Origin: Ectocarpus siliculosus
Lineage: Eukaryota; Sar; Phaeophyceae; Ectocarpales; Ectocarpaceae
DNA length: 64,000 nucleotides
NCBI GenBank assembly: GCA_000310025.1
Contig: FN649733.1
Coordinates: 1,131,851-1,195,850 of the forward strand
Direction: 5' to 3'
The first letter of the stretch is position 1; every line of letters starts with the position of its first letter. Positions 26,951 through 58,727 of this stretch are shown piece by piece. Below the pieces are notes generated by a model, which made no database searches, was not told where the DNA came from, and saw only the letters and a program-made list of their open reading frames with translations. The translations under genes and the position numbers were made by a program.

Positions 26951-28515
26951 CTACAAATCATCTTCCACCTTAGCATCGTCGGAGCCACCTACTGTCGACA
27001 TCGTTGACAAAGGATGCGTTGCGGGTGGAAGATGCGTTCCCTCAGGAGGTGATACTTCAGAACCTCCTGCAGCCTTGGACCCATCCTCAATCTTACCATC
27101 TTCCATTCTCATCAATTCCGACCCTTGTTCCAACTCGTCTGCGTCTGCACCATCCGTTTCATCCTCCAACTTGACATCTCCCGGGCCGCGTATTACCGAG
27201 CCCGTCGAAAGGGCAGAGGTCACGGATGGCCCGTCTGCTCCCTTCGGAGATGCGGGCTCAGAAACCACGCTCGCTTCTACTCCGCCATCAACCTTACTGT
27301 CCTCGATCGCCGACATCTCCACGTCTGCTACAGATCCGTCCGTCACTGCGCTGCCTCGTCCATCTCCAAGAACACCGTCACCTTGACTCTCGGAATAATT
27401 CCCATCCACCTTGAGCGGGGATATTGCTACCAACGCCAAGCACATCTTGCCAACCATGCAACAGCTGGCTACTGTAACCAACACTAACCTCGCGCGGGAG
27501 GGAAGGTCATCGTGCTTGTACACGTGGTAGACCACCATGCACACGATGAACTCCACAAGCGTCAAACCCAGGCCAATTCCAAACGCTGTCGTCTCGTCCA
27601 TGATGGAGTCCAAGAAGGGCATGGCCACCAGCCTCACCCAAAATCGAAACCCCAGGACTTCTCTGGCTGCCATCCAAACCATCAAGGCCCGGCTTACCCA
27701 CAGATACACCAACACAAAAAAAAACCACCCACGTACCACTAGTAGTAGCATGGCCAGGGGGACGAAGCGAGCAACAATCTCGAGGACGTGGTACACGAGG
27801 CAGAGCCACACGTGACTGCGCGGATGAACGTTGCCCAACCCTCTCAAACTGGAGGTTCCTTGCGCTGGCACCCGACTGAACACTAGTCCTGTCAGGGACG
27901 GAAAGCATGGGCAAAGCCTAAACCTCTCACCATCCTTACCGCCATCGCAAGTCGAAAGCCTCTCTACACTGGAGACATCGGTGGCGGCATAGGCCAGGCT
28001 GGCCGCCGAGATGCACACGGAAACTACACGCCATGCCAAGCGGCTAGAGGTGAACGATGTCTCGGTCCAGAGCCAAAGCATTGCATGCAGCTGGAGCAAC
28101 AACTGGGGCACCGATTCAAAAAGTGGCTCAATGACGCGCACAAGCGCCAGAACTGGGGAATAGTCCGCCTTTGTAAGAGTTATCAAGGCTTCGGCTAGCA
28201 AGCTCAACTGGGCCGCCACCAAGAAACGACGGAACCACCCAATGCCGGAGAGACAGAACAAGGACATGATGACCGCCGGCCCCAGGGCGAAGACAAGCCC
28301 AAGTCCAAACCAAACAAAGTGCCTTGCCTCGTAGTAAGACACCGCAGTGTAGAGATCCGAAGCCAAGTCAGCATACCCAAGGAGGACTGGTACTATCAGA
28401 ACCTTAAATGCATGGAGAGGGCCTCTGACGGCAGGGAGAGGGGGTCCATTCAATGCAATCCCTGTGATGAACTTACCAAAGCGTGGGAGCTTCTGTACCT
28501 CCAGCGGAATCGGTC
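26951..28515 (-). CDS. Terminal exon: last LRR, XKR membrane domain and acidic tail
   Basis: The exon starts after an AACAG acceptor in the same phase as the 72-nt cassettes and opens with a degenerate LRR (GPIPLEVQKLPRFG). It continues without interruption into hydrophobic segments. XK-family signatures are ADLASDLYTAVSYYEARH followed by a WFGLGLVFALGPAVIMSLF helix, and EPLFESVPQLLLQLHAML, the region matching the family's E-s-x-PQL-x-LQ motif. More helices follow (VPLAMLLLVVRGWFFFVLVY, FGIGLGLTLVEFIVCMVVYH, VLVTVASCCMVGKMCLALVA). The tail after about 27400 is hydrophilic and acidic, includes a DETDG site, and ends at a stop at 26951. A long open frame on the plus strand (26862-27386) is only the antisense shadow of this tail. 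Confidence 0.88.
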
Positions 28516-31500
28516 CTGTTCGAGGCAACAACCAAGCGAGGGGTTCAGCTGTCACTTCACGCGTGTGCCTGGTTGTCTGCAGATTTCACCTTTGTGGGGT
28601 TGGGAGGGTTGGTGCCATGGGGGTTCGCAGGGGTGAAAGTGTTTGAGCGAGGCATGCAAGGTCTGCAAATGGTAGCGGTACACGCCCAATACAAACCCGT
28701 TTCCCGCACGGATGCACAAGGCTCCTGAGCTCGGCTCGCCACCTTCGGGGCATCCTTGTCCAAAGAACATGTGTTCGGAGGTGTTTTTACCATGACGCTC
28801 ATAGGACGACCTGACCGGGATACCAAGACAAATACTTGGCAAGGCGTTTCCTGCATGATGTTTCGAGAACTACGAAGGAGAGCACAAACTTATTTATGAT
28901 GCGGTCACGATCACAATATAATCGCGCTGAGAGGTATTTGACATGAGCGTGTTTTATACACGTCAACGCCTTGTTTAGGCGCCTTCTTGAAGCTGTGTAG
29001 ATTAGTGCAAGCAGCAGGGCAGCAGTAGAGGAAATTGAGTCGCGTGTTTTCCATCAAGATTCAAGTCAGAACTTGACGTTGCCACGATGCCTTCGGGTTA
29101 AGGAAAATGGTTGGGTTTGTTGACCCGCACGCACTTATCCGAGATTCAGGCTAATACATCTGTTCCAAACATCCGTGACTGCATGAAAAGACGTGGCGGA
29201 CTGAATTCCGACAGCAGCCCGTGGCACAGCATTCATCCTGATTCCTACGTATTTTCGCTCCTCGGAGACTCGTTTTGTGTATTTTCGACCACCACGTGGA
29301 ACGATACCCCACTTGCACACAGCTCTTTTTGACGCCATACGCGATCGTCCATTCACCCGGCAGGGTTAATCAGCCTCCACACCAACACAAGGGTTTGAAA
29401 CGCACACAGCTCGCTACTAAAAGAATCACACGCAGGGGGGTGTAATCCAAACCGTCTTGCCTAAAATCAACAATGGTTGCGTGCTGCGTTCTCAGCAATC
29501 TCCTTTAGGAACGATCAAAACACTAGATGGCACTACGAAGTCTAGCACGGGACGAGTATACGTCTGAACACTTGTCTCGTACTATGTTCGCATGTCGAAC
29601 AGTTTCGACAAGCGTTGTTTGGTAGGATCTAGCCTGGGGGAGCTGGAACACGGTACGGTTTCGAACGGTATGCACTTGTACCAGCGAATTAAACGAAGAA
29701 TTGTTTTCGCACGTTCAGTAACTGTCCTTGCACCTCGGCTCGTTGATGATGGGACTATATAGCAAGTGGAATGCCGTAGTAAATAGGACTGGGTCGGGGG
29801 TGCTGACAGAAGATGTACATCAACAGAGAATATCGGTGGATGAATCGGCCCTGTGACGTTGCTCATTGCTACCGAAGGAAGGTCTACAGCCACCAATGTG
29901 AGCACCGTTGCTAAGACCGTCGCCAAGAGTATCGCCAAGTGTGCTGGGAATTGCAGAACGCCAAAAAAAGTGTCTCAATTAAGCAAAGGTGGTTGAGGTA
30001 TTCTGGGCACTACGAGATTCACCATCGACCATTTCAAAACGTTACCTGCTCTGCTCCAGCAGAGTCTATCCCCAGCAACCTTTATGCTCGAAGGATATAC
30101 TGGTGCTGCGAGATAGTGGCCTGGATGGCGAATCTATTCCCATGAAGGATGGTGATGCTCATATGCAAAACTCCTCCGTCCCTCGTAGGCAGGTCACGAT
30201 CTACGGAGACCGACTTGTGCATGGGCTCTAGAACTCTCGCGCGACGCAAACTCACCAATCACCCGTGCATATTTCAAGTGAGAAAGGCCATCATGAAACT
30301 CACCGCTCAGCTGATTGTTATGAAGATAGAGCCGCTCCAGACCGCGCAAGTTTCCCAGCTCCTTGGGTATGAGCCCTCCAAAACGCAGCACGGCGGCAAA
30401 AGCAAAATAAAAAGATCAAATGATCGAGCTTCTGAACAGATCATGGGCGGGACACACCCGCGTCACAAATTGAACATGTTGCCCCGGTTGTTGCAAACCT
30501 TTCCGTCATCACCTTTCCGCATATTTTTCTGCGACTGGCAGCAGTCATGCCCAAGGAGCTGGATTGCCTTACCGAGCTCAAGTATCTAGCTTGAGCGTGA
30601 ACCAACTTGCAGGGGACAAGGGTGGACTGCAATTTTCGCACTATTAGTTCGAGCGAAGTTTTCGGCGGCGTTCTAGCAGGTACTCAATGAAAACATGAAA
30701 TCGCCAACTCACGAACGATTGGGCACGTGGACTGACAATACTTCAGTATCACGACGCGGTTCAAACAACTTTCGACTTGCAGCTCGTAGGATCCATCCCT
30801 AAGGAAGTAGAAGTCATTGCCGAGGTCACGGGTTCTGCCTTGAGCAGCAACCAATTCGTGGGTGAGGGGAGTCGAACTGTAACTTGTCCACGCTGGCTTC
30901 AAGAACACCACCCACTCTCCCACGCGTATTGGCGAGACAGATGACCCAGCAGAGAGAAACAAATTGCAAATGTGATAGCATGTGACGTTGTCGGCTGCTG
31001 GTGCAGGTTCCACCCCCTAGGAGCTGGGCTCTTTGATGTGGACACGTCAGGATACATGATGTAAACTACACCATACCTGTTCTTCTGCAGCCACGCAGGC
31101 GAGATTCCGGCGACGCTAGGACAGCTCGGGAGATCCATTTCCCTGTCGACCAAGCTCAGCGGTGAGTGGTTTCAAGGTGAACATAAACTCTACAGCTTAC
31201 GCGTTGGCGGTATGCGTGGCAGATTGACGCCAGATTTGTGAACAGCGATTCACCCGCAGTTTGCGCAGGACGTACGCGATGGGAGATCTCAAGATCTCAG
31301 CATGTCGAAGGTGCTTTGGCTCGACAACGACCCGCTCACCGCTAAGAGGCATGCATTACCTTTTGTGTGTTGTCCAATTCGTACAAGTTGGTTCCGCTAG
31401 CTTAAACACGTGACCTACTCAACCACGCGTTGGCAGGACACCTATGCTGGAAGCCAGCGAAAATAACTTCAACACGCGCGTCCGCCCAACAATAAGTTAC

Positions 31501-34500
31501 CTAGTAGCTGGTTGTCGTTGAGCACCAAAAAATCCAGTTCGCTGAGATCTCCCAGCGCCTCGAAGATAGGCCCTGCCCATGGGAGTACCGCCCGGGAAAC
31601 ATATCATCGAGAATTTTATCAAAAGAATTTCAAAGATCCGTCCAAGCTTCTGACCAGGAATCGTCTACTCACCCACTCGTTGGCGAGTGGGTGTTGAAGA
31701 AAAGTCAAGCTTGCGTCGAGGTGTATTTCTGCAGACCTTCCGTAGGCCCTGGGGCGCTGGGGGCACTCAGCGAGCCGGACGAGCTTTGGCTGGACGAGAA
31801 CAAGCTCGCCAGCGAGGGAGAATGAGATTTGAAGGTTTGCTTCCTAGAACATGAGCCCCGTCTGTGCGAGGGCGGGGCTCACCTTCTAGACGCCGCAAAC
31901 TCTGTGAACTGAGGGCATTGAACGGTCCACGCTTCATTGTCATCCATGGGGTCTATACCCCCGGACCTCCGAAAGCTGGGCTCTACCGACACCTATATCT
32001 GTTTCACAGCTATTTCAGCTGAGCGGTGAGCTTCGATTCACCGGCTTCGGTGCATGACTCTTTGAAGGGCATTTTTTTCGTTTTGGAAGACGTGATGACC
32101 TGCTTTACCTACCCATGCCTTCGAAGACTAGTAGGTGATCTACAACATGCGTGACATGTTTAACATACTTCTCACCGGTGAGCTGGTTGTGGTGGAGCCC
32201 AAGCGTCTGAAGCTGGCTCAGGCTTCCTAGCTCCTGTGGGATGTGTCCTGTTCAAGCAACACAGCAACAAGAAGACATGATATTTTCACGTCCTCGAGAT
32301 TGCAGTTCTACATCACCAAAAGGAAGGGTGAATAGGTGATGTTCTGAAATTAGAGTGTTTCACCCATGGGTGATAAAGGGTTCAAGGAACCTGGGGGGGG
32401 GTCATTACCGCTCCCGCACTAACTTCGGGTCCACTTGTTCGCTACAGGTTCCATCCCACCGGAGCTGGGAGTCCTCGCCACCCTGACACACGTCGAACAT
32501 ATGGGAAACCAGCTGTAAGCGGTGACTAACGACCGGCACACGTTGTGCTTTCCCACAAAATTTCAACATCAATCACAACGACGAAGTTGTATCTTCAACA
32601 ATAGTTCGCACCCACGCGTCCGGACAATAATTGTTTTCACCTTGAAACCACTCACCACTGAGCTTGTTCCAAGAGAGACGGAGCTGTTGCAGATTGCCAA
32701 GCTGTCCTAGCGTCGCTGGAATCTCGTCTGCAAGTTACAACAGCGGGTATGGTGGTGCAGTCTAGATCATATGTCTTGAGACTTCCCGAAAGTGTACCTC
32801 GCATCCCTACTCACCCCCGGCGTCGGCGGAACAAATATTCCGCATCTAGCCGTGGTCCCGGTTTAGCGGTCCCTAGCGTCACCCAATGTTATGACCGGCA
32901 TTGCGGGCATCGCCGCTGAACCAGATTGGCAGTTATATACGGAGTAGTTTGACTATTAATACCGAGGTGCAGCCGTGCCACGAGATTTTGGAACCGCTAT
33001 CCAAGGCATCCTGCCGAACAGGAAACCGCTAAACCGGGACCACGACGGTATGCCTGAAGCTTCCTCACACCATTTTCTCAATATTCGTGTTGCTGTTGTG
33101 CTGCTTTGTGCCGGGCCGATACCCAAGGGGCTGGCAGTACAAAACAAATCCGTTGGTACAAATGTCGACTTGCTGCTCGCAGCGCCCATCCCCAACGCGT
33201 GGGGAGCCCTTCAAGGACTCGCGCATCGTGCCCTGGGTAGCAACCAACTCGCAGGTGGGAGGAGGTGGACTGAAATCTTTCCATCCCAGCGCCACAACAT
33301 GACCGACTCACCAACCCGAAGGTGACGGAAGGTATTTCGCAAGGCGTTGGCGCAACATTTTCCTACCAACGCGTAGATGGGACGCACCTTCAAGAAGCCG
33401 CAGCCCTTGACGAATGGCCGGCTGCTAATGAACCATTCTACATCAAATTGAACCCACCCACAGGACCTACACCACTCGAGTTTGGAACCCAGGCGATCTG
33501 TAACGAACTTTACCTTCGTGCCAACCAGCTGAGCGTCGAGTTCCGATTTGCCGGCATCCGCGAATGGCTTTGTCTAGCGCATGTGTGTATGACTTACCAA
33601 CTAATGAGGGACACGTAATCGATCACCCATGCGACAAAAATAATCGATGAATCGAAGCTGCCGACATCTAATATTATGCCCCAGCGCACTGCTGACGAAC
33701 AGCACACAACATTCGCGACCTTCTGGGACACATGGCTGCGAGCTGAAACATTGGATGAATGTCGCCGAACAAGCCTACTGGACCATACGGATCGAGTACG
33801 TAGTCGAGGACGCTCCAGATACCTACAAACAAAGCAAAGACGACTGCAGAATAGGTGATACCGAACGTCCTGCGCATACAAGAGGCTCGACTTATGGCGT
33901 GTTGTTCAGCGCGGTGCATGCTTCACGAAATCTCCTCTTCGGCGAACCAGGAAACATCTGACTTGTTCCAAAAGTCCAACTTCAGATGCTGCTTTGCGGT
34001 TCGATTTTAGAACGCTTCAACCACACCGTGACCGTGTGTAACCGCGGAATTCAGCATATCCTATGTATTTGTAGCCTATTTAAGCAGGTAAAAAGGTCGA
34101 GGTGTAGGTCTACCCGAAACGAAAGGTGCTTGAAGCGGTCGAAAATCGGACCGCCCGCAGCATCCACAACCCTGCTCGCAGCTCACCGAACTCCACGAAA
34201 AAGGGCTCGATTCGAAAGTTGCGGACCGCAATCTGTAGCTTGTATCACAACGGCCAACATTGGAGACGCTTTGGCACGGTGGTACATGGAAAGCATTTGG
34301 AAAGCCTGACTAGGCACGTGTTTCCTGGTGCGCCTACGAAGAGCTCTGAAAAACTCCACTGCCCCCTTCAGAACTTTTTTTTTAGCCTTTCCTCTTTTCC
34401 TTCCGGAATCGTCGCTTTCTCTTTGATTGGTTGGGTCATTGAGATGCCACCGCCCGAGAATCGGGAACGCAGCTTACCCGGGCGGGTGTGGGTACATGTA

Positions 34501-37500
34501 TGAGCACATCTCGCCGAAACTTCGACAGAGCGACTGTGGGAGTTAAGGAGCAAGGGGACCAGGAACACCTGCCGCAACACGCCAGTCGTACAGCACGCCG
34601 CGTACACCTTCGGTGCTGACGTGTCGGGTGTTCTTGGGCAATAATTGATGCTCGGTGGGCTTTCTAACCGCTTCCATAAGGCACACATCACATGTTTTGT
34701 ATCCTTCGCGATAAAAGATCAAGACGACCCGTGCTTCTTGGCCAGCTTTCATCATTCAACATTTGTGAAGCTTAAGAGAGAGCAGCGTGAGCAAGCAAAG
34801 CTGCAGCAACCCCGTACAGCCTCATAGCCACACAACACACCGCATAAACGGTGCTGTGATGCTCGACGAGCTGCCTTTTCCCGCCGTAAAGGCACAAATG
34901 ATATGTCCTGGTTCTTTCGCGGTACAGGTCATGCCACAAATGGCAGTTTCCCTTTGTCAACAAGTCAACTTTCGCGAGATGAGCGGTTACGAGAGGGAGA
35001 GACAGCCCCACACACCCAGCATGAGCAGCAGGATCAGCTGCACTAGCACGGCACAGCCGTACGACGCACCGCACACTCCTTCTCGGCGCTTCCCCGTCAT
35101 TTCTTTACAACACCGATCTATTGGGGGAGTCTTGTGAAACTATCGTCAAGGTTGTCCCCAGATTTGAAGAGAATACTGGGACTGATATTGTACCGCCCGC
35201 GCTAAGTTAGACACGCCGGACAAATGTTGCGGATTCCCATAAATTTTAACATGAACCAAAACCGCGATACTGTTTCTTCAATATTCTTCTCATGCACGAC
35301 CAGTATTGGCTACCTGTAAGCCGGTTGGAGTAGAGAGACAGCTCCCGTAGGTTGCTGAGAGTTCCGAGCGCCTCGGGGATAGGCCCTGCATACGGGTCAA
35401 AGCAGGGGAAACACAGAATAGAGAATCGAAGAAAGTCCAAAAACAGCTTGTCCCGCCCAGCTTCTGAAACATGCGTGGTTTCGGAGAAGATTCAACCTCT
35501 CGGCGAGTGAGTGGTGTTTTTCTGACAACATTACCGGTTGCACAGGCCCCATCCCCGAGCTCCTGGGAGCACTCAGCGAACCGAACGGGCTCTGACCGAA
35601 CGAGAACAAGCCCACCAGCAAGGGAGGATGAGGTTTACACATCTCCTTTCTAGAATATGAGTCACATCTGTTCAAGAGGGGGACTCACCTTCTAGAAGCC
35701 GTGACCTTGGTGCGGCATTGAACTGTCCACTCTACATCATTTCGACTTTATCACAGGGTCTATACCGCCGGATCTTGCGAAGGTGGGGCTCTTGCGGCAC
35801 CTATATCTGTTTCACAGCTAAATGAGCGGTGAGTTTCGATTCACCGGCTTCAACGAATGACTCTTTGTAGGACAACTGTCTTCGTTCTGGGAGACGTGAT
35901 GGGGCTAGCAGGTGTTCTACCGCAACATTCGTGGCACTGTTAACACATTCTCACCAGAGAGCTGGTTAAAGTAGAGCCAAAGGGTCTGCAGCTGGCTCAG
36001 TCCTCCTAGCTCCTGTGGGATGTATCCTGCTGAAGCAACACACCAACAAGACACGATGTGTTCATGTCATCGAGATTGCAGGGTTTTACATCACATACTC
36101 ACCCACAAGGAAGGGCGAGTAGGTGATGTTCTGAAATTTAAGTGGCTCACCCATGACTAAGTGTTCTAGGACCCGGGGGATTTCATTACCGCTCCCGCAC
36201 TAACTTCGGATGCACTTGTTCGCTACAGGTTCCATCCCGCCAGAGCTAGGAAGTTTCGCAGCCCTGACACACCTCGAGCTTGGGGAAAACAGCCAAACTA
36301 TGAGTCACGACGGACACATGTTGCACTTTTCCAGAACGACGATACGATGGATTCAACACGCCTCTCATCCACGCGTCCGGACGTTAAATTGTTTTCAGCT
36401 TTAAACCACTCACCGCTGAGCTTGTTCCAAGAGAGATCCAGCTGTTGCAGGTTGCCGAGCTGTCCTAGCGTCGCGGGAATCTCGTCTGCATGGTAGTAGA
36501 AGAACGGGTGAGGTGAAATGGTGCAGTATAGATCACTGTCCTGAGACTCCCCGAAAGCGTGCCTCGCCTGCGCATGTTCTACAACACCGACTCACCCACT
36601 GCGTCGGTGGAACACATATTCTGCATAATCCTGAGGCTTCCTCAACCCGTTTCTCAAGTTACGTGTTGCTGTAGTCCTGCTTTGTGCAGGGACGATACCC
36701 AAGGAGCTTGGAGCTCTTACAGAGCTGAAGGAGTCTTTTCCGAGCTATAATCAGCTTCTAGACACAAGCCGAGGTCATACTATTTTCAGTCTTACCATCT
36801 CTAAGCCTGCCGCTTCCACATTACCTCCTCACCCACGTCCATCAAGCTTCTAGAATCTTGATGTTCTTGAAGCCAGGGGACCCAAATCTCTAGTCCGCGC
36901 AATTTTTTTCACTCGCTTGCTTGCGTGAGTGGTACAAAACAAATCCGTTGGTACAAATGTCGACTAGCTGCTCGCAGGACCCATTCCCAACGCGTGGGGA
37001 GCCCTTCAAGGACTCGCGCATCTTGCCCTGGGTAGCAACCAACTCGCAGGTGAGAGGAGGTGTACTGAAATCTTTCCATCCCAACTTCCACAACATGACC
37101 GACTCACTATCCCGAAGGTGACGGTGGGTATTTCGCAAGGCGTTGGCGCAACATTTTCCTACCAACGCGTGGATGGGACGCACGTTCAAGAAGCCGCAGC
37201 CTTGAATTGTCGGCAGGTAAAGGACCACCCTACATCATATTGAACCCACCACAGGACCTACCCCACTCGAGTTTGGAACCTGCGCGATCTGCAACGAACT
37301 TCACCTTCATGCCAACCAGCCGAGCGTCGACTTTCGATCTGCCGGCATCAGTGAATGGCTTCGTCTAGCGCATGTATGCATGACCTACCAACTAATCGAA
37401 GCTGCCGACGTCCAAACGATTTTGTCCCAGTGCACTGCTGACAAACAGGACACTCGCGACCTTCTGGGACACATGGCTGCGTGCTTCAACGTTGTATGAA

Positions 37501-40500
37501 TGTCACCGAACAAGCCTACCGGACCATCACGGACCGAGTACGTAGTCGAGGACGCTCCAGAGAACGGCAAACGAAGCAAAAAACGACTGCAATAAAATCG
37601 ATACCGAACGTCTTGCGCATACAAGAGGCACATGGCGAACGCTTCACAAAATCTCCTCTTCGGCGAGCCAGGAAACGTCTGACTTGTTGGGTTTTCCAAA
37701 GTCTAGCATCGCGCAAACGCATCCGCACACCGTCTCGAGTGTACAATTGTAGCTTGTAGGATTGGTAGCCTTTGCACTATTCTACGGATTTGCGGTCCGC
37801 AAATTAAGGAAGGAGCCTACGTCCAGTTTAGTTTAGTGAGCTATGAGCAGCGGGCTATTGATGCTGCTATGCGGTCCGATTTTCGAACCTTCAACCACAG
37901 TGACCGCGCGAACCACCGCCGATGTGAGTGTGGGTGATTTGCGGAATTCACGACGGTCACGTGATGTGGATCCCCACAAAATTTCGACGTGAATCTAAAC
38001 CACGATACTGCTTCTCCAACATGTGTCTCACGCAGGCGTCGGCAGGACACACTCTTAGAAGCCAGAGAAAGCACTTTCAAAGTTGCACACGTCCGCCCAC
38101 TATTAAGTCACCTGTAAGCTGGTTGGAGCTGAGCAGCAGCTCCCGCAGGTTGCTATGAGCTCCTAGCACGTCCGGGATAGGCCCTGTACACGAATTACAG
38201 CCGGGGAAACAGAGCACGGAGAAATGGTAGAAATCCAATTAATCGAAAACATAAACATCCCGTCCAAGCTTCTAAAACATGCATGGTCTTGTAGAGGTTT
38301 GCGTCGGTGAGTGGTGAATTCTGAGGCACTGGCAACCCACAATGAGCCGAGCGAGCTTTGGCTAACGAGAACAAGCTCCCCACGGAGAGGACGGGACTTG
38401 AAGGTTTGATTTCCAGTGTGGGCGGGGTCAAGACCTCTACAAGCCGCAATTTTGATGAAGTGTCGGCATTGAATCGTCCGCTCTACATCATGTCGAACCC
38501 ACTACAGGGCCTGTACCGCCGGAGCTTGGGAAGCTGGGGCTCTTGCGACACCTATGGAAACACGCAGAACCCGCTTGCAAGTTCAGCGGGCCAGCTGCCT
38601 CTCGCTCGCACTCTACGTGCTCTTCCGCTACCTTTACCTTCACTGAAAGTGTTCGTCCCGTGGATCCTTCGGCCTTTTGATTATCGGGCGACAGGTATGC
38701 ATAGTTGTTCGGTCTTCTTGAAGCAAGCCCACAACAACACACATCATACACGCATACCCAGCCCCAACTGAAATCCATTGTTATGACAAGCGCAGCAGCA
38801 CATACAACATGAATGTTGCACCGCTGTTTGTTGGCACACGCGCAGCGGAAGTAGAGTGCGTGCTGAACGTGTAACGGGCGACGATGGAAGTGTGGGTGGG
38901 TCCAAAACGCGCAGTCGTGAATATCCTTCGACCTTTCGCTACGCCACCACCACGACACGATGGGACGTTTTCAGAATACCTCGGAAAAAATTCGAAGAAC
39001 AAAAAAAAAATAACTCTGTAGGGAGACTCGCCTAGAGACACGAGGGTCGACGGTACGTTTCAGATTTCGGAACACCCACGCTCCTGCCCCCAGCAAAATG
39101 TGTATCTTTCTGGAGGAGAATTGTTGGACATGTTGCTGTGCATGGACCGTATGGTTTCTTCAAAATCCAGCTTCGTAACTTGCGTCGTGGATTTGATAGA
39201 TAGATGCCTCATGTCTGAACTGTGGCAAAAAAATCGGGAACCGAAACTCAATCCTCTTGCAAACGTCCCCGCGCCAACTGCGGATGCCCTTTTTCGCTAA
39301 AGGTTCCATCCCGCCGGAACTCGGAAACCTCGCCGCCCTGGCATGCCTCGACCTTAGGGAAAACCAGCTGTAAAGCGGTATGAGTCACGACGGACACATC
39401 TTGTGCTTTCTCACAAAATTTTGAACGTGAATCACAACCACGATACGTGTATCTTCCGACATGCTTGTCACCCACGCGTTGGCAGGACAAATTCATATAT
39501 TTCACCTTGAAACCACTCACCACTCAGCTTGTTCCAAGAGAGGTTGAGCTCTTCCAGGTTGCCGAGCTGTCCGAGGGTCGCTGGAATCTCGCCTGCATCA
39601 TGCGTCGTAGTAGAAGAAATCGTGGGTATGGTGTCAAGGAGTAGATCGGATCATGTATCCTGAGCCTTCCAAAAGCGTGCCTCGCCTGCACATGCATTAC
39701 AACACTGACTCACCCAGTGCATCGGCGGAACACAATCCCGACGTTTTCTCACACCATTTTCTCATTTTTTCGTATTAGGAGTGTTATCCGTGCTACAATC
39801 AGCTCATCATATGTAAAAATGCGGGGCCTAATTTTTTTGTGTTTATTTCTAAAGCCTGCCCCTCCGACACCACCTACACACTCACGCCTCTATCAAGCTT
39901 CTAGAAGCACCGTTCCATTCCAGGCGTGGTGAGGTTCTAGAAGCCAGGGGATCCTACTTTCTAGTCGGCACTAAATTGTCACTTGCGTGCACGCGCGAGT
40001 AGTACAAGACAACTCCTCTGATAAACGTTTCGGCTACTGTAGCTACTCGCAGGATCCACCCCCTCGAGTCAGGAGCCCTTGCCGGACTCGCGCATCTTGC
40101 CCTGGCCAGCAGCCAACTCACAGGGTGAGCTGAGTGGACTGAAATGATTCCATGGAAACTTCCAAAACATTAACCAACGCGAACGTGAGTACGTGTTTCG
40201 CAAAAGCGTTGGCGCAACACTTTCCAACCAACGCGTAGATGGTATACACCTTCAAGACGCCGCAAACTTGAAGAAATGCCGGCAGCTTATGGACCACTCT
40301 GCATCATATTGAATCCGCCAAAGGACCTACACCTCCGGAGCATGGGAACCCAGGCGATCTGCAACGAACTTTGCCTCTTTGCCACTCCGCTGAGCGCTGA
40401 GTTCCGATTTTCGTATGTGTGCATATGACCCACCGGCCAACGCATTGAAGGGGACACGTATTCGATAAACCCATGCAACAATATTTCTTCTGAAATCGAA

Positions 40501-43500
40501 GCTGCAGACGTCTAGAAATTATGCCCCAGCGTACTGACGACGTAAACCAAACAACATTCGAGGCCTTGTCGGACACACTCCTGCGATATGCAACAGTGAG
40601 GGACGCAGCGAACAAGCCTAACGGGCCGAAGCGGGACGGGTTCGTAGTCGAGAATGCTCCAGAGTACGACAAACGAGGCTAAAACGACTGAAAAAATAAG
40701 CGATACCGAACGTCCTGCGCATACGAGAGGAGCCAACAAGTCAACGAGTATTTCGGGGTGTGCAGGGGGACACGTGTTCAAGGACTTCTCTTTGGCGAAC
40801 CAGGACACATCTAACCAGGAAGCGTCTGACTTGTTTGGTTTTCCAAAGTCTACCTTCAGCGCGAACCTGCCATCGTCCAGAAGTGAATGCTCACGTCGCG
40901 AGTGTAAAATGTTCGTAGCTTGGATTGGCAGCCCTTGCGATAAACTACAGATTTGCGGTCCGCAACTTTCCCAAGGAGCCTACGTTCTTTGAGTTCGGTG
41001 AGCGATGAGCAGCAGGCTTTTGGGTGCTGCTGCGAGGTCCGATTTTCGAAAGCTTCAACGACGCAGTGACGCAAATCACCACCTATGTGAGTGCGTGTGA
41101 CCTCGGAATTCAGCGCAGTTCTTCCCTAGCAAACCCTTTGCCGCCTATTTGAGCCCATAGGAAGGTCGCGGGTCATGTTTGGAAAATTCTACCAATAAGC
41201 AAAAGTGCTCGAAGCGTTCCAAAACCGGACCGCACCGCAGCATCCAACATCCTGCTCGGATAGCTCACCGAACTCCATGAAAAAGGGCTCGTTTCGAAGC
41301 TTACGGACCGCGATCTGTAGCTTATCACAAAGGCTACCATCGTACTACGAACATTGTACACTCGCGACGTGTTCGGCGCTTTGGCACGACGATATAGTCG
41401 TCCCGAACAGAGGATTTGGAAAACCAAACTAGGCAGGCGTTTCCTGGTGCGCAAACAAGAGATCTGCACAACTTCACCGCCTCCTAAACTAAGAACTTTG
41501 GTATTGGCCGTTCTTCTCTTCCTTCCGCATTGTCGCTTTCGCTGTTGATTGATTGGGTCATTGAAATGTCACAGCCGGAGAATTGGCAACGCCGCTTACC
41601 AGGGTGGGGGGGGTCGCATGTGTGCGCACATCTTGTTGAAACTTCGAGATTCAAAGAGCGGTTACGAGAGAGAGACAGTCTGTCACACACACCTAGCATA
41701 AAAAGGATCCGCTGCATTAGCACCACACATCCGGGTAAGATCCCACAGAACTTCCTCCTGAATCTCAACCACGATACTGTTTCTCCAATATACTTCTCAC
41801 GCATGCGTTGGCGGCACTTTCAAATGTGCATACGTCCGCCCAAGATTAACCTACCTGTAAGCTGGTTGGAGTAGAGCGACAGCCAGAGCAGGTTGCTGAG
41901 AGCTCCCAGCTCCTCGGGGATCGGCCCTGCACACGAATTGCAGCCGGTGACAGAGTGCGGAGATATGAATACTTTCGGAAGCATCCCGAGCTTCGACAAC
42001 ATGTATCGTCTTGTAGAAGATTGAAGCTTGCCTTGAGAGTGGTGTAATTCTGACAAACTTGGTCCACCTGTTGGGCAAGCCCAATCCCTGAGGCACTTTG
42101 AGCACCCAGCGAGCCGAAGAAGCTTTGGCTGAAACGAGCAAGTTTGATATATTCCAAAACCGCGTCGGCGCGGCACGCCTTCTAGAAGCCGCAAATCTTG
42201 GTGAAATACCGGCGTGGAAGTGTCCATGCTAAATCATTTCGAACCTACCACAACGCCTTTCCCACTGGACCTCAGGAACCTGGGCGCTCTGGGACAGCTC
42301 TACCTGTTTCACAGTTAGCTGAGCGGTTAGCTTCGATTCACTGACCTCGATGAATGTCTTTGGTGGGAGAACTGTGTCCGTTCTGGAAGGCGCTATGACT
42401 TTCTCACCCTCGATCGTGCTAGAACAACAAACAGCGCACTTTTGACACGTCTCACCAGTGAGCTGGTTGCGGTAGAGCTCAAGCGCCTGCAGTTGGCTCA
42501 GGTCTCCCAGCTCCTTTGGGATGTGTCCTGATCAAGCATCACAGCAATACGACACGATAACCTCACGTCACGGAGTCTGCAACACATACTTGACAAATAA
42601 ATTGAGTGGCTCATGCGTGTGGTGATTTGAATGCTCTAGAACCCGGGGGATTTTCAGTATCGTTCCCGCGCCAGGTTGGATGTGCTTGTTCGCTACAAGT
42701 TCCGTCCCGCCGGAGTTGGAAAGCCTTGCCGCCCTGACACATGCACCTCGACTTTCGGGGAGACCAGCCAAGCGGTTAGTCACGACGGACACATCATGTG
42801 ATTTCCACAAGAAATTCAACATCAAGCTCAAGCACAGCCACGATACTTTACGGTCGACATGATTCCAACCCACGCGTTGGTATTAGGACAGATTGTTCTC
42901 ACCCTGAAACCACCTACCACTAAGCTTGTTCGAAGAGAGATGGAGCTGCTGCAGGTTGCCGAGTTTCCCTAGCGTCGCTGGAATCTCGCCTGCGTGGTAG
43001 AAGAACAGTTGTGTGAAATGGTGCAGAATAGATCGTATGTCCCGAACCTTGCAGAACACGTACCTCGCCTGCACACGTTCTAGAACACCGACTCGCCCAC
43101 GGCGTCGGCGAAAGACATATTCCTCAAGCCTCACATCGTTTGCTCATTTTTCGTGTTGCTGCTTGCAGTTATATGATGGACCGATGCGCAAGAAGCTGGG
43201 GGGCCTCACAGAGCTGAAAGAGTTTTTTCGTGCCGCAATCAGCCTACAGGTAAAGAGGCGGGGTGGTACACTTCTATTTTTACCTCCAAAGCCTGCCGCT
43301 TCCTGACCACCTACTCACCCAGGCCTATCGAGCTTCCGGAAACGCCTTTCGACACAAGCGTGGCGATTTTCTAGAAGGCAGGGGACCGTACTTTCTACTC
43401 CGCGATAAATTGTCTCTCGCTTGTACGCGTGAGTAGTTCAAAACAAATGGGAGCCTTCGACGGGGTGTGACAACCGTGTATGTGATAGCTATGGGGGCAA

Positions 43501-44389
43501 TCCAGCTTGCTGCAAAAAGTGCTGCTGCCGAAATCTCAAGGTGGGATGGTAGTCAGGGTGTGTGTGGTCACGAGGGGGGTTGGGATGCATTTGCATGTTG
43601 CGAGCAGAAGGTGGTATTGGCGCACGTCGGCTGTTCGCACCGCAGTGCACTTCTGGAGCGCGCTGCCACTGCTGCTCAGTAGGTGCGATGGCCACCACCT
43701 GGGTGTGCCAGCTGTACGTGGGAGAAGCAGCAAGAGGAGCCGGTCGTGCAGAAGAAAGCCACTCGGTTCGAAGAAAAAATACGTGATAGGTCGAGCCCAC
43801 AACGCTGCTGTCGAAGCAACGGAGTTCTGGTCGCCACATGGCGTGGTTCCAGCCAACAGAGGAAGGTGTTGTGTGTGTGTTGCTTGTTGAGTCCCATCGA
43901 CTGAGTACCACCTGGGTGGCAGAACAGCCCCCCCGCGGTTTGCGCGGCGTAAACTCGGTGTTGGTCGTTGGCAACCCGGGAGATAATTCGACCGAAAGGT
44001 TTGGGTTCAAATCTACGAGTATGTATAACCCAGTGAGGAGTTCGATTTCGTGTGTGGTTTCCTATGTCGTTTACGATCGAACGTGTGCAAAGTGCGGGCA
44101 TGTACTACAAAACAATCCATACCGGGATCACTTTCGGTCGATGGATTTTTGCGAAACACGAAGCACTTCGTAAGAGCAACACGTTATTCTTTTGAGAACT
44201 AGGCCAAAGAGTACCTTCGAGGTTGTTGTCGCGAAGTTTGAGCTTCACCACTCGGCCCTGGTCGTTGACGTCGACTCCGTGCCATGTCTTGAGATCGGCA
44301 TCTGTGTCCCAATTTTGGCGTTCTCTCCAATTCTCCCCGCCGGTAGCACGATACAGGACGACCAGTGCGTCACGGTCCGTCTGTGCCAT
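26951..44389 (-). CDS. LRR-XKR protein: N-terminal cap, 12 one-exon LRRs, thirteenth LRR plus XK-related membrane domain
   Basis: Fourteen exons: 44215-44389 (cap), 42918-42989, 42456-42527, 41855-41926, 39521-39592, 38112-38183, 36414-36485, 35955-36026, 35314-35385, 32656-32727, 32176-32247, 31501-31572, 30304-30375, 26951-28515. All twelve middle exons are exactly 72 nt, phase 1-1, begin mostly G/D-x-IP-x-x-LG and end N-x-L-x-G. Together they total 2604 nt with no internal stop (867 aa). Residues 1-58 are the cap (MAQTDRDALVVLYRATGG.., NWDTD, TWHGV) typical of brown-algal LRR proteins. Residues about 59-360 are LRRs, about 385-700 the XKR region (ADLASDLYTAVSYY, EPLFESVPQLLLQL) and about 715-867 an acidic Ser/Glu-rich tail. 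Animal XKR proteins include caspase-activated phospholipid scramblases. A role here as an LRR-gated membrane effector is inference. No signal peptide is seen on the cap exon. The start at 44389 gives the family-typical N-terminus; an in-frame Met at 44452 is an alternative. Confidence 0.85.
30304..30375 (-). CDS. LRR cassette closest to the XKR exon
   Basis: A 72-nt exon (GLIPKELGNLRGLERLYL..) between a GGAG acceptor and a G|GTGAGT donor. It belongs to the IPKELG type, whose other copies in this locus lie on the plus strand, so this type is present in both orientations. Its polypyrimidine tract is weak, and use of this exon should be confirmed from cDNA. Confidence 0.75.
30545..30613 (+). pseudogene. 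Antisense LRR cassette relic (MPKELDCLTELK)
   Basis: Plus-strand LRR cassette after a CAG acceptor. It reads MPKELDCLTELKYLA, then needs a one-base shift to reach a second half ending NQLAG. It lies in an intron of the LRR-XKR gene. Confidence 0.65.
30790..30861 (+). CDS. Intact antisense LRR cassette (GSIPKEVEVIAEV)
   Basis: An exact 72-nt open cassette on the plus strand with a TCGTAG acceptor and a G|GTGAGG donor, phase 1-1, reading GSIPKEVEVIAEV to SSNQFVG. It is opposite in sense to the gene around it. Either it belongs to an overlapping plus-strand transcript or it is an unused cassette. Confidence 0.65.
31007..31045 (+). pseudogene. Antisense LRR relic (GSTP-stop-ELGSL)
   Basis: A GTGCAG acceptor is followed by the start of a SIPPELG-type cassette. 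TAG replaces a proline or acid codon and the second half is missing. Confidence 0.55.
31099..31161 (+). pseudogene. Inverted EIPATLG-type LRR cassette on the plus strand
   Basis: Opens after ACGCAG with GEIPATLGQLG and closes KLSG|GTGAGT, but is 63 nt instead of 72, having lost three codons in the middle. The other EIPATLG cassettes (42918, 39521, 36414, 32656) are on the minus strand. The flank after the donor ('gtgagtggtttcaaggtga') matches the flank of those minus-strand copies, so exon and flank were inverted together. Confidence 0.75.
31260..31348 (+). pseudogene. Antisense LRR relic (LSMSKVLWLDNDPLT)
   Basis: The second half of an LRR (KVLWLDNDPLTA) can be read on the plus strand. The first half is decayed and no acceptor is clear. 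Confidence 0.45.
31501..33960. repeat. LRR cassette unit D
   Basis: One of four copies of a mixed-strand cassette unit. Left to right: minus PIFEALG exon 31501-31572; plus relic 31746-31813 (GALGALSEPDELWLDENKL, IP lost); plus relic 31951-32021 (SIPPDLRKLG, one-base frameshift); minus HIPQELG exon 32176-32247; plus 32448-32520 (SIPPELGVLATLTH, then a TAA near the end); minus EIPATLG exon 32656-32727; plus half-cassette 33113-33150 (GPIPKGLAV); plus 33183-33254 (PIPNAWGALQGLAH, open, first residue Ala); plus 33464-33535 (PTPLEFG, donor lost). The spacer to about 33960 holds motifs shared with units C and B ('cgaacaagcctac', 'ctcttcggcgaaccagg'). Confidence 0.8.
35314..37760. repeat. LRR cassette unit C
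   Basis: Same order as unit D. Minus PIPEALG exon 35314-35385; plus relic 35546-35616 (PIPELLGALSEPNGL, then stop); plus 35757-35828 (SIPPDLAKVGLLRHLYLFHS, then TAA, donor kept); minus YIPQELG exon 35955-36026; plus 36229 to about 36300 (SIPPELGSFAALTHLELGEN, donor decayed); minus EIPATLG exon 36414-36485; plus 36690-36761 (TIPKELGALTELKE, open, donor lost); plus 36978-37049 (PIPNAWGALQGLAHLALGSN, fully intact); plus 37255-37326 (PTPLEFG relic). Spacer motifs shared with units D and B follow to about 37760. Confidence 0.82.
36978..37049 (+). CDS. Intact antisense LRR cassette (GPIPNAWGALQGLAH)
   Basis: An exact 72-nt open cassette on the plus strand with a CTCGCAG acceptor and a G|GTGAGA donor, phase 1-1, ending SNQLAG. 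It is nearly identical to the cassette at 33183-33254 and is the better preserved copy. Its frameshifted relative is at 40053-40123. It lies inside an intron of the minus-strand LRR-XKR gene. Confidence 0.7.
38112..40830. repeat. LRR cassette unit B, with one sense cassette missing
   Basis: Minus PIPDVLG exon 38112-38183; plus relic about 38336-38400 (EPSELWL); plus 38508 to about 38555 (GPVPPELGKLGLLRHLW, second half replaced). From about 38560 to 39290 the sequence is unlike the other units and the expected minus-strand H/YIPQELG exon is absent. Then plus 39303-39377 (SIPPELGNLAALACL, extra TAA codon before the donor), minus EIPATLG exon 39521-39592, a remnant of the plus IPKELG cassette near 39776, plus 40053-40123 (one-base deletion, then GALAGLAHLALASSQLTG), plus 40324-40395 (PTPPEHG relic with frameshift), and spacer motifs shared with D and C. 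Confidence 0.78.
41855..43450. repeat. LRR cassette unit A (promoter-proximal, truncated)
   Basis: Minus PIPEELG exon 41855-41926; plus relic about 42070-42145 (PIPEAL, then stop, EPKKLWL); plus about 42255-42326 (PLDLRNLGALGQLYLFHS, then TAG, LSG); minus HIPKELG exon 42456-42527; plus 42700-42775 (VPPELESLAALTH, then frameshift); minus EIPATLG exon 42918-42989; plus 43179-43249 (PMRKKLGGLTELKE, one base short of 72). The IPNAWG and PTPLEFG cassettes found in the other units are missing at the right end. Antisense stops and frameshifts differ from unit to unit. Confidence 0.8.
44215..44389 (-). CDS. First coding exon of the LRR-XKR gene (LRR cap module)
   Basis: Encodes MAQTDRDALVVLYRATGG, then NWRERQNWDTDADLKTWHGV and GRVVKLKLRDNNLEG, ending at an AAG|GTACTC donor in phase 1, the phase needed for every following cassette. 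This cap (T-D-R-x-A-L-x-x-L-Y-x-A-T-x-G..W) opens many Ectocarpus LRR genes. The large first intron (42990-44214) holds open frames on both strands of no recognisable kind. Confidence 0.85.
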
Positions 44390-45599: not shown

Positions 45600-45905
45600 C
45601 CCACCAACCTAGCACCTACCCACGTTAGGACCAACCTAGCACCTATCCAGGCAATAGCATACCAACCTAGATTTATCCCATCAACGCCAACCTAGCACCT
45701 ATCCAAGCAGTCACGACCCAGATTTTTCCCCGTCAACAGCAACCTCGCCCTAATGCAGGCATTAACAACCTGGATTTTTCCCATCAACGCCAATTTAGCA
45801 CCTATCCAAGCAGTAACAACCTAGAGTTTTCCCCGTCAACACCAACCTCGCGCCAAGCCTGGCACACCAACCTAGAACTGAGCCAGCCAGCGCCAACCTA
45901 GCACC
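45600..45905. repeat. Degenerate tandem repeat (ccaacctagcacctatcca)
   Basis: About six or seven diverged units alternate between 'ccaacctagcacctatcca' and 'acaacctagatttttccc', with 'gtcaacaccaacctcg' variants. It has no coding potential and leads into the telomere-like tract. Confidence 0.75.
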
Positions 45906-45916
45906 TATCGGGTGGG

Positions 45917-45950: not shown

Positions 45951-46167
45951 TAGCCTGTTTCGTACCCCTGCCAAAGCAGAGCACCTGTTTTTTAGGAGCA
46001 CTAGAATTGCTTTGATTGCAAATAGTGCAGGTCAAGGGTAGGTCTTAACGAAGAAATCAGATCTCGAAATCACGTTTCGATACAAGAATAAAAGAGTCGG
46101 ATCTACCCAAATCCGGACAGAAATGGCCTGTGTGTCTTAACGGGAGATCTGCCAACTGGAAACGAAT

Positions 46168-46868
46168 AGACTACTAATTTTTCGGCCTGAAACATTCCGA
46201 GAACGACCCAGTCGCAGGCTATTTCAGCGGTCCCCAGCGATGCCGGTTCGCAAAACAAAATTTTCCTCTTTCATAAAATCTCCAAATTTCAAAAAATACA
46301 TACTACTTGTACAGTACACACAGCTCTAGTCTACATCGACTAGTCACCGGTACCTACATACATACATCTGCATACACACCGGTATACCCTGTGTACAGCA
46401 CAACCAACCTCCTCCGATGGCAAAGAAACGTGTATATGCTCAAGTAGAGCCTGTCGGGAAGCTGGTGGCATGGCCAGCCTTACCCTACCGTCGGATGGCC
46501 GGAGGGCGAGATGGCTGAGATGCTTACTTTGGCGGCCGAACAGAACTACACGAAGCTTGGCGGGCGGGCGTCTCTCGTTCATGTCTCCCCAAGACCACCA
46601 ATTGAAAAGCAACAAGCCGAATCAGGGCAGTGGCGGTTGCCCTCCGATTGTTCGCGGACGCAAGGAAGGGTGCTGTCCCAGATCAGACGGACGGGCAGAC
46701 AAGGGAGGCGACAGCAGGAGCCTTGGAGAAGTTTCGGAAGGCCGAAGCTCCGGCCGAAGCTCGGTGTGCTGCCTGGGAAAACGAAGCCTCAAGGCAAGGA
46801 GCTGGGGCATCGGACTTGCTTGATAAATTGCGGCTGAAGGACGAAGCAAGGACGATGTCATCTCTTCA
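46168..46868. repeat. Left arm of ~700-bp inverted repeat
   Basis: Starts 'agactactaatttttcgg' and matches the reverse complement of 47183-47862 along almost its full length, including 'ggctatttcagcggtccc', 'ctagtcaccggtacctac' and 'gtcgggaagctggtggcat'. It differs by small indels, among them an extra 'gaagctccggcc' stretch near 46745. Frames such as 46340-46615 recur mirrored in the other arm and are not evidence of genes. Confidence 0.9.
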
Positions 46869-47182
46869 CTCCGAAGTGATGTTACTTGTTTCGCTTCAAT
46901 AATGGTCGCCACCCACATCACAAGCGACGGTAGCGTTGTCGAACACACTCCCGGACGCCGCGAGCCCCTCTAGGTTACGCACGAACACGCTCCAAAAGCG
47001 ACGGTGCTCTTACGGGACCACAGATACTACGCGCTCTGCGCTTGGCTGCAACCGCTTCAGGATCGTGTGGTTGAATCTCCCCTCCCGCCTGCCCCCCCCC
47101 CCCCGACTTCTGTGCCTTCCACACGCCTGCCTAGCCGTCGTTCTCACCATACCCCGCACCAGCAACATTATTATTCTCAGTG

Positions 47183-47862
47183 AAGAGATGACATCGTCCT
47201 TCGTCCTACAGCCGCAATTTATCAAGCAAGTCCGATGCCCCAGCTCCTTGCCTCGAGGCTTCGTTTTCCCAGGCAGCACACCGAGCTTCGGCCGCCCAAG
47301 GCTCCTCCTGCTGTCGCTTCCCGTGTCTGCCCGTCCGTCTGATCTGGGACAGCACCCTTCCTTGCGTCCGCGAACAAACGGAGGGCAACCGCCACTGCCC
47401 TGATTCGGCTTGTTGCCTTTCAATTGGTGGTCTTGGGGAGACATGAACGAGAGACGCCCGCCCGCCAAGCTTCGTGTAGTTCTGTTCGGCCGCCAAAGTA
47501 AGCATCTCAGCCATCTCGCCCTCCGGCCATCCGACGGTAGGGTAAGGCTGGCCATGCCACCAGCTTCCCGACATGCTCTACTTGAGCATATACACAGCAG
47601 TTTCTTGCCATCGGAGGAGGTTGGTTGTGCTGTACACAGGGTATACCGGTGGCATATGTATGTATGTAGGTACCGGTGACTAGTCGATGTAGACTAGAGC
47701 TCTGTGTACTGCTGTACAAGTAGTATGTATTTTTTGAAAATTGGAGATTTTATGAAAGAGGCAAAATTTGTTTTGCGAACCGGCATCGCCGGGGACCGCT
47801 GAAATAGCCTGCGACTGGGTCGTTCTCGGAATGTTTCAGGCCGAAAAATTAGTAGTCTATCT
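47183..47862. repeat. Right arm of ~700-bp inverted repeat
   Basis: Reverse complement of 46168-46868, separated from it by a loop of about 310 bp. The loop includes a poly-C tract near 47093-47104 and a stretch with no match in the arms. High arm similarity implies a recent inverted duplication or maintenance by gene conversion. Confidence 0.9.
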
Positions 47863-48660
47863 CTGCAGTCCACCGCGAACAACCCGAGAGGTCCGCCGCT
47901 TGCCAACTGCCAGATTGCTGTTGTGACGTACTGTTATGACGTGGCCACACCACATGGGGAGCTATCGCTCCCGCCAGGCACACACCAAACGCGTCAATGG
48001 CCTCTGTGCGGTACTGGCAAGATGTCTATATGCATGTGAGAGTTTGAATCGAGCCTCGTCCGACGGAAAGCCGTCAATTCGTCTGTGCGTTTGAAGTTCG
48101 ACAACCCACCGGAGATTGCCCCACAGACCAACACATCCCACACACGTTTTTTTCGGCACCAGCCACGTGCAACAACGATGCGCAGTCACCCTCCCTTTGG
48201 GTTGGCTTTTTGTGCTCTCTCTTTCCTCTGTGCTCGGCGGTGGATGGAGTTCGTGTGGATGGGGGTAGGTGGGCACGCGCCGTGCATGCGAGTAGACCGT
48301 GGTCCCGCAACTATGGACGGTGTCACCCAAATCGGGATCCGATTAAATTATTTCACCTTTTTTCAAATCCCGATTTGGTTTTGGGTCGTCCTGTTTTAAG
48401 TCCTAAAGATTCGACGGGTTCCATAACATTTCAGCCAATCAACAACAGAGTTCTTTGGATCTTCCGGTCTTACAACTAAATCTGAATGTGATTTCGAGAT
48501 CTGATTTCTTCGTTAAGACCTACTCTCAGGGGTTGGAGCCTCGGAACATTTTGCCCTTTTTTCGCCTTCAGGTGGTGTTTTCGGTCTGTCGAGGGCATGA
48601 GTGCATGGCTTATTTGCGTACCCATGGGTGCATATAACGTTTGCTGCCCTATCCGATCTG

Positions 48661-51600
48661 TTAGTGACTCTACATGTAACAGAGTGTAAACTGCTGGGAA
48701 CCGCCTGTCTGTTCGGTTGTGGGGAAAAGTTGCAGCTGCAATCGAGGTGTCTACAGAAACCCTTTGGTTTGGCAGGGTCGAGGCACCGAGGCTTTTTTTG
48801 TCGTCAGAGTGTAAACTGCAAGTTCGCGCAAGATTCACAGAGAGTCCGAAGGCATTTTAGCTGTTTAGTACAGTGCACATCCCTTTCGACTGAGGTTATA
48901 TCTCGAACGGGTAGTCTTTCTGTGAGGTTATGAGTACTTTCTAAAACGCATTTCCATCCGCGGGAGAATGAACAAGTCGCGGTACCAGATCATGACATGA
49001 TTCTTCGAACTTTGCCGTCTGGGTCGCGAACGGCTCCAAATCACCTGCTCGATCTTCGCAGAAGGTTGACGCTGTATTTGGCGTCTTTGCAGGTTTCGGC
49101 TATTGTACAGGCTATCTGTTTCGGCACTTCGGCAAGCGAGGTCTGAACTTCGTCATCAAGCAAGATTTGCCAGATTCTCCCGCCACAGCATAAGTGAGAT
49201 TTGGAACGGAATATATTACACCTGCCTACCTATGTACGTAACACAGCAGTAGTTACACATGTGACACATCACAGGACAAGAAAAAGCATGCGGCCGAACA
49301 AGTGCCCATGCCAGGCAATGAGTCGAACTTCACAAAGGTGACGACGTGCGTCCTGTGGCGCACACTCGTAACCTCTCCACACGACCTCGCCTGCCTGCGT
49401 TCCACGGCTGTTGTTGTTGTGCACACTGTGTGGATTTTCCCGCAAAATACAGGAACACTTACCCAGCAGTCGACGAACGTGGTGTACAGCTGAACCCTGT
49501 CTTCTTCTTCGTGGCACCCGCCGCTGTCTCTTATGGCTCTTTTTCTTTAACCGCTTCTGCCGACCAACGCGCACGGTCCTCAGCTCATGTCCTGGGTCAT
49601 GTGCCCATGTATGTGCAACTCAATCACAGCTCGGCCTTCAGGGGGCCCATCTAATGAGACAGACGCACATGAGCCTCTACCTACATAGCCTCATCGGTCC
49701 CATGATCCGGCACCCCTTGATCCAAATCCAAATCCACTTCACCAGTCACATATCTACGACGAAGACGCCCACCGAGACAGAGCTCCACCTAGCTCACCCC
49801 TCGCACCTTCTTCCGTCGAACGGCCGAGGGCGTTCTTCGTGGTCACCACCAGCTCCTCCTCGTTGGCCGCGTCCACCTCGGCGATATCTGCACTGAGTCA
49901 CATGGAAAGCGTTGCCGCCGGTTGGCCTACAGTGTACACAACAGCAGCAAGCAGTTGTCACAGAAGGACACAATCCACTGAAGACCGTCGGGTGGTACTA
50001 AGCAGAGTCTAGACTACAACTTGTACAAATGGTAGTCTAGACCTACCTGTAGCCTCGATTTACACCCTGAAAAAAAACAGATCTTCGCAAGATAGCGCCG
50101 ACCGATCATGTTCATTCGTCCATGATATCGGCCTTGAATACCTTCTACATGCACTCTCTCTCTCTCTGGCCCTGGATACCTCTCTCACCTACGGCTGCTG
50201 TCCACCCTCATTTGCGAATAGCTCCTGAACTCGCATTTTCTGCAATTCCGTGCGACACAATACATTTCCTCATCGACCACGACTGGTGATCTCGTGTTAT
50301 TCTTCGCCCATCCACCGGGCGCTGAATCGAAAGGTACCGAGATATGTTGTCTGTAGGCATTTGATGACGCTAAATTAGCGCGCGGTTTATAGCCCGCCGA
50401 GCAGGGTGGGCCTAAAATAGAGCGTGCAATCTTTGCCTGAAACCCCCCTCAGCGCACACTTGTAGAGAGGTGATACGAAAATTCGGGCCCGTGCCTCGCA
50501 GCGAAAACAATTTAGGGGCATTCTTTTTCGCCGGCGAGAAGGCATATCGTGACCCCTTTTCCCACCGATATTGACATACGCAGTTTATGCACCAATAGCT
50601 GAAGCAGTTCAACGCACAGCTCGTGGAAATGCCTCCTTTTGAAAGGTTATTTTCCGATTCCGTGCCCCCTCATCCCCAACACCATAGAACCTATTACCGA
50701 GCCAAAGTTTTTGGGCTTGCGGCGAGAAAACACAAGCAGCACGCTGCCGTTAGTCTCGCCCCTCGTCTAGCGACATCAACGAAAACTCAACCCAGCAAGT
50801 CCACATGATATAAAGACGAGCTAGATTTAACAGCAGTCATCGCCACATTCTCGCAACGGACAGCAGTGACGCGCAGGAAAGGCACCGTGGTACGAAACAC
50901 ACAAGTCTGCAAAGATCTCTTGAGCCTACTGCAAGCCCCCAACACAACACGGCTGGCAACAACTGACAGTGATGAGTACTTCGAATCAAACCTCCTCCGA
51001 ATCGACACCCAGAAAACCACAGAAGCAAACTCCAAGCGCCGAAAATATTGGTGAGCCGGACACACGTACTTCTTATGTACCACCACTGTTAGCGAGTCAG
51101 ACCCAGAACAGTAAGTCAGGCAGGCCAACAGTGAGGCGACGCGGCACCTGCCACACATACCAAGGCCGCCTTCCATCTGTTGCGGATGGATCGAGCACCA
51201 TATTACAGTAAGCACCAGCCAACGAACGTGCACACCAACACCCATGAAACACTTGCACGTGACAGCACTAGACGCACAGAACAACACACGCACATGAGGG
51301 CAGCACACAACCAACACTCGCGCAAGCTAACACCTTCCAGAAAACAGTAACACAAACCAACTAGATACACCACGATCACACCATGGCCGGCGGACTAACT
51401 AACGCCTCGCGCTAGAGAGACCGCCCGCGCTGGGGCTCGGTTTACGCATGCTAGATTCAGATATTTACACCCTACCGGCATGCAGACCTATCAATCACGG
51501 GCACGCATCCAGCCGCTGTAATACCCCACAAAATAAAATTCCAATAGCCAGCCTGAAGCCAGGGACGTCACAGACTTCCCATCAGCGTTTCACTCGCAAC

Positions 51601-51773
51601 CTCTACCACTTGAAATCTAGCACGCTTGGTATGATGATGAGACAGCAGGCATCGGATCATCTACCTAGAACGGGCTTTGTCCGGCAAATCGAAAGCCAGA
51701 CACATCAGCACAGCCCCTACCCCCTCCCACGCCAAAAATTATCTCTGATTCATCAGTATGGCGTAAAAAGCTT
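48661..51773. other. Intergenic; no supported gene
   Basis: Beyond the inverted-repeat element and downstream of the GT8 gene. A short hairpin, 'gtctagacta' with 'tagtctagac', occurs at about 50007-50041, and a CT microsatellite at 50155-50168. The duplicated phrase 'cagagtgtaaactgc' at about 48680 and 48806 may mark decayed repeats. Open frames here lack any domain or splice support. Confidence 0.45.
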
Positions 51774-58695: not shown

Positions 58696-58696
58696 T

Positions 58697-58727
<31 letters not shown>

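Follow-up and report, generated by a model that had tools for sequence, protein, structure and literature searches.

In animals, relatives of the XK-related (XKR) domain carry lipids from one membrane leaflet to the other in dying cells, CED-8 being a further animal XKR scramblase beside XKR8, XKR4 and XKR9. The plant proteins FLS2, MIK2 and HAESA are extracellular leucine-rich repeat (LRR) receptors that have both a signal peptide and a kinase domain. Brown algae became multicellular independently of plants and animals, and little is known of their receptors; LRR genes of Ectocarpus were reportedly annotated by Zambounis et al. in 2012. Here we analyze 64,000 nt of contig FN649733.1 of Ectocarpus siliculosus (the window, along the whole of which all positions are counted), whose minus strand carries a gene, with its ATG at 44389 and its TAG stop at 26953-26951, that joins an LRR array to an XKR domain (LRR-XKR). 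Our preferred reading, for which the balance of evidence is slightly favorable, is that it encodes one membrane protein, composed of an LRR solenoid (a cap and 13 repeats), an LRR13-GPPLP linker, the XKR domain and an acidic tail, and acting as an LRR-gated scramblase.

The protein shares with the animal scramblases XKR8, XKR4 and XKR9 the XK-related fold, as judged from a structural model, as well as the helix-1 D...D, R..E...E and PQL..Q motifs and an equivalent of W45. It differs from them in its N-terminal LRR array, in the low identity of the structural alignments (15-16%), in the missing equivalent of D129 and in that no caspase-type plug was recognised. Its N-terminal cap is presumably similar to that of the brown-algal LRR-ROCO GTPases. 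With the latter (Teng et al. 2024, available text of PMC11378527) it also has in common one LRR per 72-bp exon, the same split-codon phase (12/12 here) and the four concave sites that vary, whereas the output domain is here a membrane XKR domain, with no match to ROC-COR.

XKR domain, LRR face and gene family

The terminal exon matches the Pfam XK-related profile (PF09815) at an E value of 3.5e-14 and 53 bits (cut-off 24.8), and the same profile was matched at E <= 0.001 by all 34 relatives scanned. XK-related was the sole match of the terminal exon alone at E <= 10, with no ROC-COR, and the relative P0001 matched only LRR models and XK-related (E <= 0.001), again with no ROC-COR. A family profile made from the XKR domain only found XKR9 (E 1.2e-4) and XKR4 (E 0.007); most matches of that including the LRRs were to plant LRR receptors, and XKR9 (E 0.014) and XKR4 (E 0.021) were among the rest. 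A phmmer search of the PDB with the terminal exon alone gave no match at E 10. Charged residues of XKR8 have roles in scrambling (available text of PMC8500837), and the equivalents of its path residues recur in the family rows as follows: D26 in 27/27, D30 in 26/27, R134 in 30/31, E137 in 29/31 and E141 in 30/31. This conservation is good sequence evidence that the translocation path of the XKR domain is intact.

Eight membrane helices and a C-terminal plug on the cytoplasmic side are described for XKR9 (available text of PMC8298096), so that the N-terminus of the algal protein, and hence its LRR part, would by analogy be expected in the cytosol. A cytosolic LRR part agrees with an N-terminus that is not signal-like (for 19-aa segments that begin within the first 60 aa, the highest hydropathy is slightly negative) and with an LRR part that, in the window protein, has no Cys, two features that set it apart from FLS2, MIK2 and HAESA. 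Change in the LRRs is concentrated on the concave face, at four sites that are also variable in brown-algal ROCO proteins, which is good evidence for a putative variable recognition face in a fast-changing domain of the kind that plant immune receptors use.

At its C-terminus, the window protein has an acidic tail of 152 aa with 34 acidic and 9 basic residues. The tails differ between the clades of the family: in nine relatives forming one clade of the tree (P0007, P0012, P0015-P0019, P0022 and P0036) a PREVEGPVRW-like peptide is found at or near the C-terminus after a variable linker, and some other relatives end in acidic peptides, e.g., GEVKVEDGLESV in P0014. The conserved C-terminal peptides are possibly clade-specific inhibitory plugs, and one might guess, by analogy with XKR8 and XKR9 (available text of PMC10938166), that the PREVEGPVRW-like peptide acts in this way. 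In P0006, P0010, P0011 and P0023 the XKR domain is followed by a tail of several hundred residues.

Three protein searches, in each of which only the roughly 8,000 candidates with most words in common were scored, returned at least 72 related clusters: 38 in the first, 9 more in the second and 25 more in the third. Thirty-five of the 72 have at least 48 residues ahead of the helix-1 landmark, a count that leaves out 19 clusters that are too short and 18 in which the landmark is missing, and an LRR motif is present there in 34 of the 35. In the exception to the LRR-XKR junction, P0044 from Laminaria digitata, LRRs are present and the last stretch differs. According to precomputed Pfam tables, LRR and XK-related occur together in 13/72 clusters, 10 of them from Ectocarpus species and one each from Scytosiphon promiscuus, Pylaiella littoralis and Laminaria digitata. 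In a midpoint-rooted tree of 63 XKR domains out of 73 sequences given (P0044 of Laminaria left out), there are two deep groups, both with Ectocarpus LRR-XKR proteins, and several Ectocarpus paralogue clades; the window protein pairs with P0001 (support 0.94), the nodes leading there having supports of 0.65 to 0.996. As far as sequences can tell, LRR-XKR is a multi-copy brown-algal gene family that extends beyond one fusion, and XKR-type domains form an expanded family outside animals too. Viral and prokaryotic contig collections scanned with the XKR-only profile gave 35 and 28 pattern-matched stretches, respectively, none of which was upheld as a relative by tblastn.

A reading made earlier from the letters of the window without database searches (the sequence-only reading) had proposed an XKR domain in the terminal exon, the union of LRRs and XKR in one protein and the absence of a described counterpart. 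The first two are borne out, the second as a reading frame shared by a family and not as a lone fusion. As to the third, no LRR-XKR protein from brown algae was found described in the open literature, an unlabelled mention in Zambounis et al. 2012 being possible; nothing there paired Ectocarpus with scramblase or brown algae with XKR, and a search for phosphatidylserine exposure and brown algae gave, by title, mainly drug studies, none relevant. LRR-XKR is a conserved domain architecture that has apparently not been described.

Proposed mechanism and alternatives

In the mechanism that we propose, a plant-type LRR solenoid is joined to the XKR membrane domain through the conserved LRR13-GPPLP linker; the cytosolic LRR part would bind a variable ligand on its concave face, binding would lift the inhibition of the XKR domain, and the released domain would scramble phospholipids, exposing inner-leaflet lipid at the cell surface, with receptor and executor in a single chain. 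Lipid scrambling by the XKR part and its control by the LRRs are plausible because the residues for scrambling are conserved and change is concentrated on the LRR face, and a role in defence, self-recognition or cell death is plausible as well. More tentatively, the proteins may constitute a brown-algal family of intracellular LRR receptors with a fused XKR scramblase as executor, their specificity renewed by tandem duplication of LRR cassettes, with no caspase, kinase or NB-ARC step. If this is true, ligand binding opens the fused scramblase and membrane lipid asymmetry collapses. With a diversifying LRR array and a scramblase-type domain joined in one family, recognition might lead to membrane change by way of a single protein, and LRR-XKR offers a concrete molecule for asking if lipid signals are exposed by brown algae during defence or cell death.

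Several observations weigh against an LRR-gated scramblase: (i) the profile alignment to XKR9 stops short of the equivalent of R183 of XKR8, the sixth path residue; (ii) the R98-D129 salt bridge is said to be well conserved across the animal XKR family (PMC8500837, in the text available), whereas D129, half of this stabilising bridge, is replaced by V, I, L or T in 31/31 rows, and, having no D129 equivalent, the LRR-XKR family is not placed in the animal caspase-activated XKR subgroup; (iii) the tail of the window protein is acidic, and no counterpart of the XKR8 or XKR9 plug was recognised in it; (iv) the predicted local distance difference test score (pLDDT) is below 50 for LRR 13 and the linker in the XKR model (28516-27398), and the predicted template modelling score (pTM) of the full-length model is 0.53, so that the models do not fix how the LRR part sits with respect to the membrane; (v) purified rXKR9 in liposomes gave no strong evidence of scrambling (PMC8298096, in the text available), and the fold alone is therefore no proof of scramblase activity; (vi) the window protein has one N-L-S sequon within its LRR part, and 8 of the 14 relatives checked have a single Cys in theirs; (vii) the ratio of nonsynonymous to synonymous change (pN/pS), drawn from exon pairs that are not independent, is 0.97 across all five concave codons and 0.20 for type-A exons alone.

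Some of these points, namely, the liposome result for rXKR9, the R183 equivalent lying outside the profile alignment and the acidic tail, would also fit a real LRR-XKR protein whose XKR part is an anchor or a lipid-transfer partner and not an LRR-gated scramblase, in the manner of XK, which binds VPS13A via a cytosolic loop (available text of PMC9436381). We consider this somewhat unlikely, given that the XKR8 residues needed for scrambling are conserved in nearly all family rows. The VPS13A-binding hairpin of XK, moreover, lies in the second of its cytosolic loops (the same paper replaced residues 94-115), whereas the short hairpin predicted at residues 222-230 of our XKR model falls in a later loop and was rejected as a VPS13-binding candidate.

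It is also conceivable, but unlikely, that the variable face of the LRR-XKR protein serves development, mating or self-recognition rather than defence. LRR proteins fill many recognition roles, and none of the observations points to a pathogen; however, the four positions at which change is concentrated are shared with the ROCO candidate immune receptors of algae.

Gene anatomy and reading frame

The 14 exons in constant phase and the 867 codons of the sequence-only reading, with a cap, 12 one-exon LRRs and a thirteenth LRR running into XKR, were all recovered at the coordinates it had given: the predicted joined coding sequence is 2604 nt long and yields 867 aa followed by TAG, with no internal stop. 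The cap exon (44215..44389; 175 nt, donor GT) contains the ATG and the N-terminal LRR cap (MAQTDRD...NNLE and the first base of G). The 12 LRR exons, likewise on the minus strand, are open and exactly 72 nt each, and they belong to type A (exon 1, 42918..42989; exon 4, 39521..39592; exon 6, 36414..36485; exon 9, 32656..32727), type B (exon 2, 42456..42527; exon 7, 35955..36026; exon 10, 32176..32247), type C (exon 3, 41855..41926; exon 5, 38112..38183; exon 8, 35314..35385; exon 11, 31501..31572) and, in exon 12 (30304..30375), a unique type. The terminal exon (26951..28515; 1565 nt) comprises LRR 13 and the linker (about 28515-28415), the XKR domain (about 28414-27410), the acidic tail (about 27409-26954) and the stop, the inner borders being approximate. 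An AG acceptor or GT donor stands at every exon border, and all junctions cut the codon after base 1, as G/GN except for two G/AC (Asp).

As a control, an amino-acid pattern blind to splice sites was run on both strands of the window at one score cut, giving 12 matches on each. All 12 minus-strand matches are open, 72 nt long and flanked by AG/GT, and they keep 5/5 core hydrophobic positions, whereas 3 of the 12 on the plus strand (at 30790, 33183 and 36978) are open with AG/GT, and none of the three keeps all five positions. The exon series exceeds chance expectation.

That the cap, the LRRs and the XKR domain form one reading frame, and thus probably one protein, is supported by several lines of reasoning: (i) LRR 13 (GPIPLEVQKLPRF...) and the XKR domain share one unbroken exon; (ii) after Met 1, the next Met of the spliced protein is at position 430, already within the XKR domain, and the frame of the terminal exon, traced upstream through its stop-free extent, has no ATG before 28267 (M430), so that membrane helix 1 and its two key aspartates would be ATG-initiated only via the upstream exons; (iii) P0001, an NCBI-annotated protein of Ectocarpus sp. 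6 (878 aa), shares with the window protein the cap, the 12 LRRs in order (compared by eye) and the terminal exon, with 95% identity across the latter, and departs from it by a few changes in the tail and by additional residues at two of the LRR junctions; (iv) the LRR-XKR junction is family-wide. Two separate genes, LRR and XKR, merged by gene predictors are therefore very improbable. Some database models, e.g., P0002 and P0004, do begin within the XKR domain, as such a merger would predict, but these two start at the position of M430. Decay of the locus, which the many broken LRR exons of the plus strand might suggest, is just as improbable with the minus-strand cap, 12 LRR exons and terminal exon undamaged and the last so close to the Ectocarpus sp. 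6 protein, its frame unbroken.

Antisense relics and flanking sequence

The introns of the gene contain antisense LRR exon relics (30542..43253, plus strand), against which selection on the live exons can be gauged. Searched with a profile of the 12 exons, which was itself trained on those live exons, the plus strand gave 23 matches at E <= 10, and for 16 of these E was about 0.05 or lower; 2 of the 23 are open with AG and GT. For 8 of the 12 live exons, a relic among the profile matches lies 153-205 bp upstream in divergent orientation, and the relic at 31099 is an inverted type-A exon. Relics of different cassettes have stops at the matching place (32448 with 39303; 35757 with 42254), and this sharing of stops suggests that the relics were already dead by the time of the last cassette duplications. 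A tblastn search with 47 family proteins (E 0.01) found, on the plus strand of the window, LRR pieces but no cap or XKR relic; the relics are accordingly not part of a second gene visible in the window, and a plus-strand gene of this kind was rejected.

Of 45 long stop-free frames (9138-15250 and 47013-63568), the 10 that were scanned gave no Pfam match at E 0.01, and an ARAGORN search found no tRNA. Just upstream of the LRR-XKR gene, a tandem repeat with units of about 52 bp (and 103 bp) occupies 45630-45909. Beyond it, 46166-46846 and 47199-47860 form a large inverted repeat with a spacer of about 350 bp, whose arms are 97-98% complementary and match in pieces of 291, 149, 96 and 60 nt; it is perhaps a recent mobile element or an inverted duplication.
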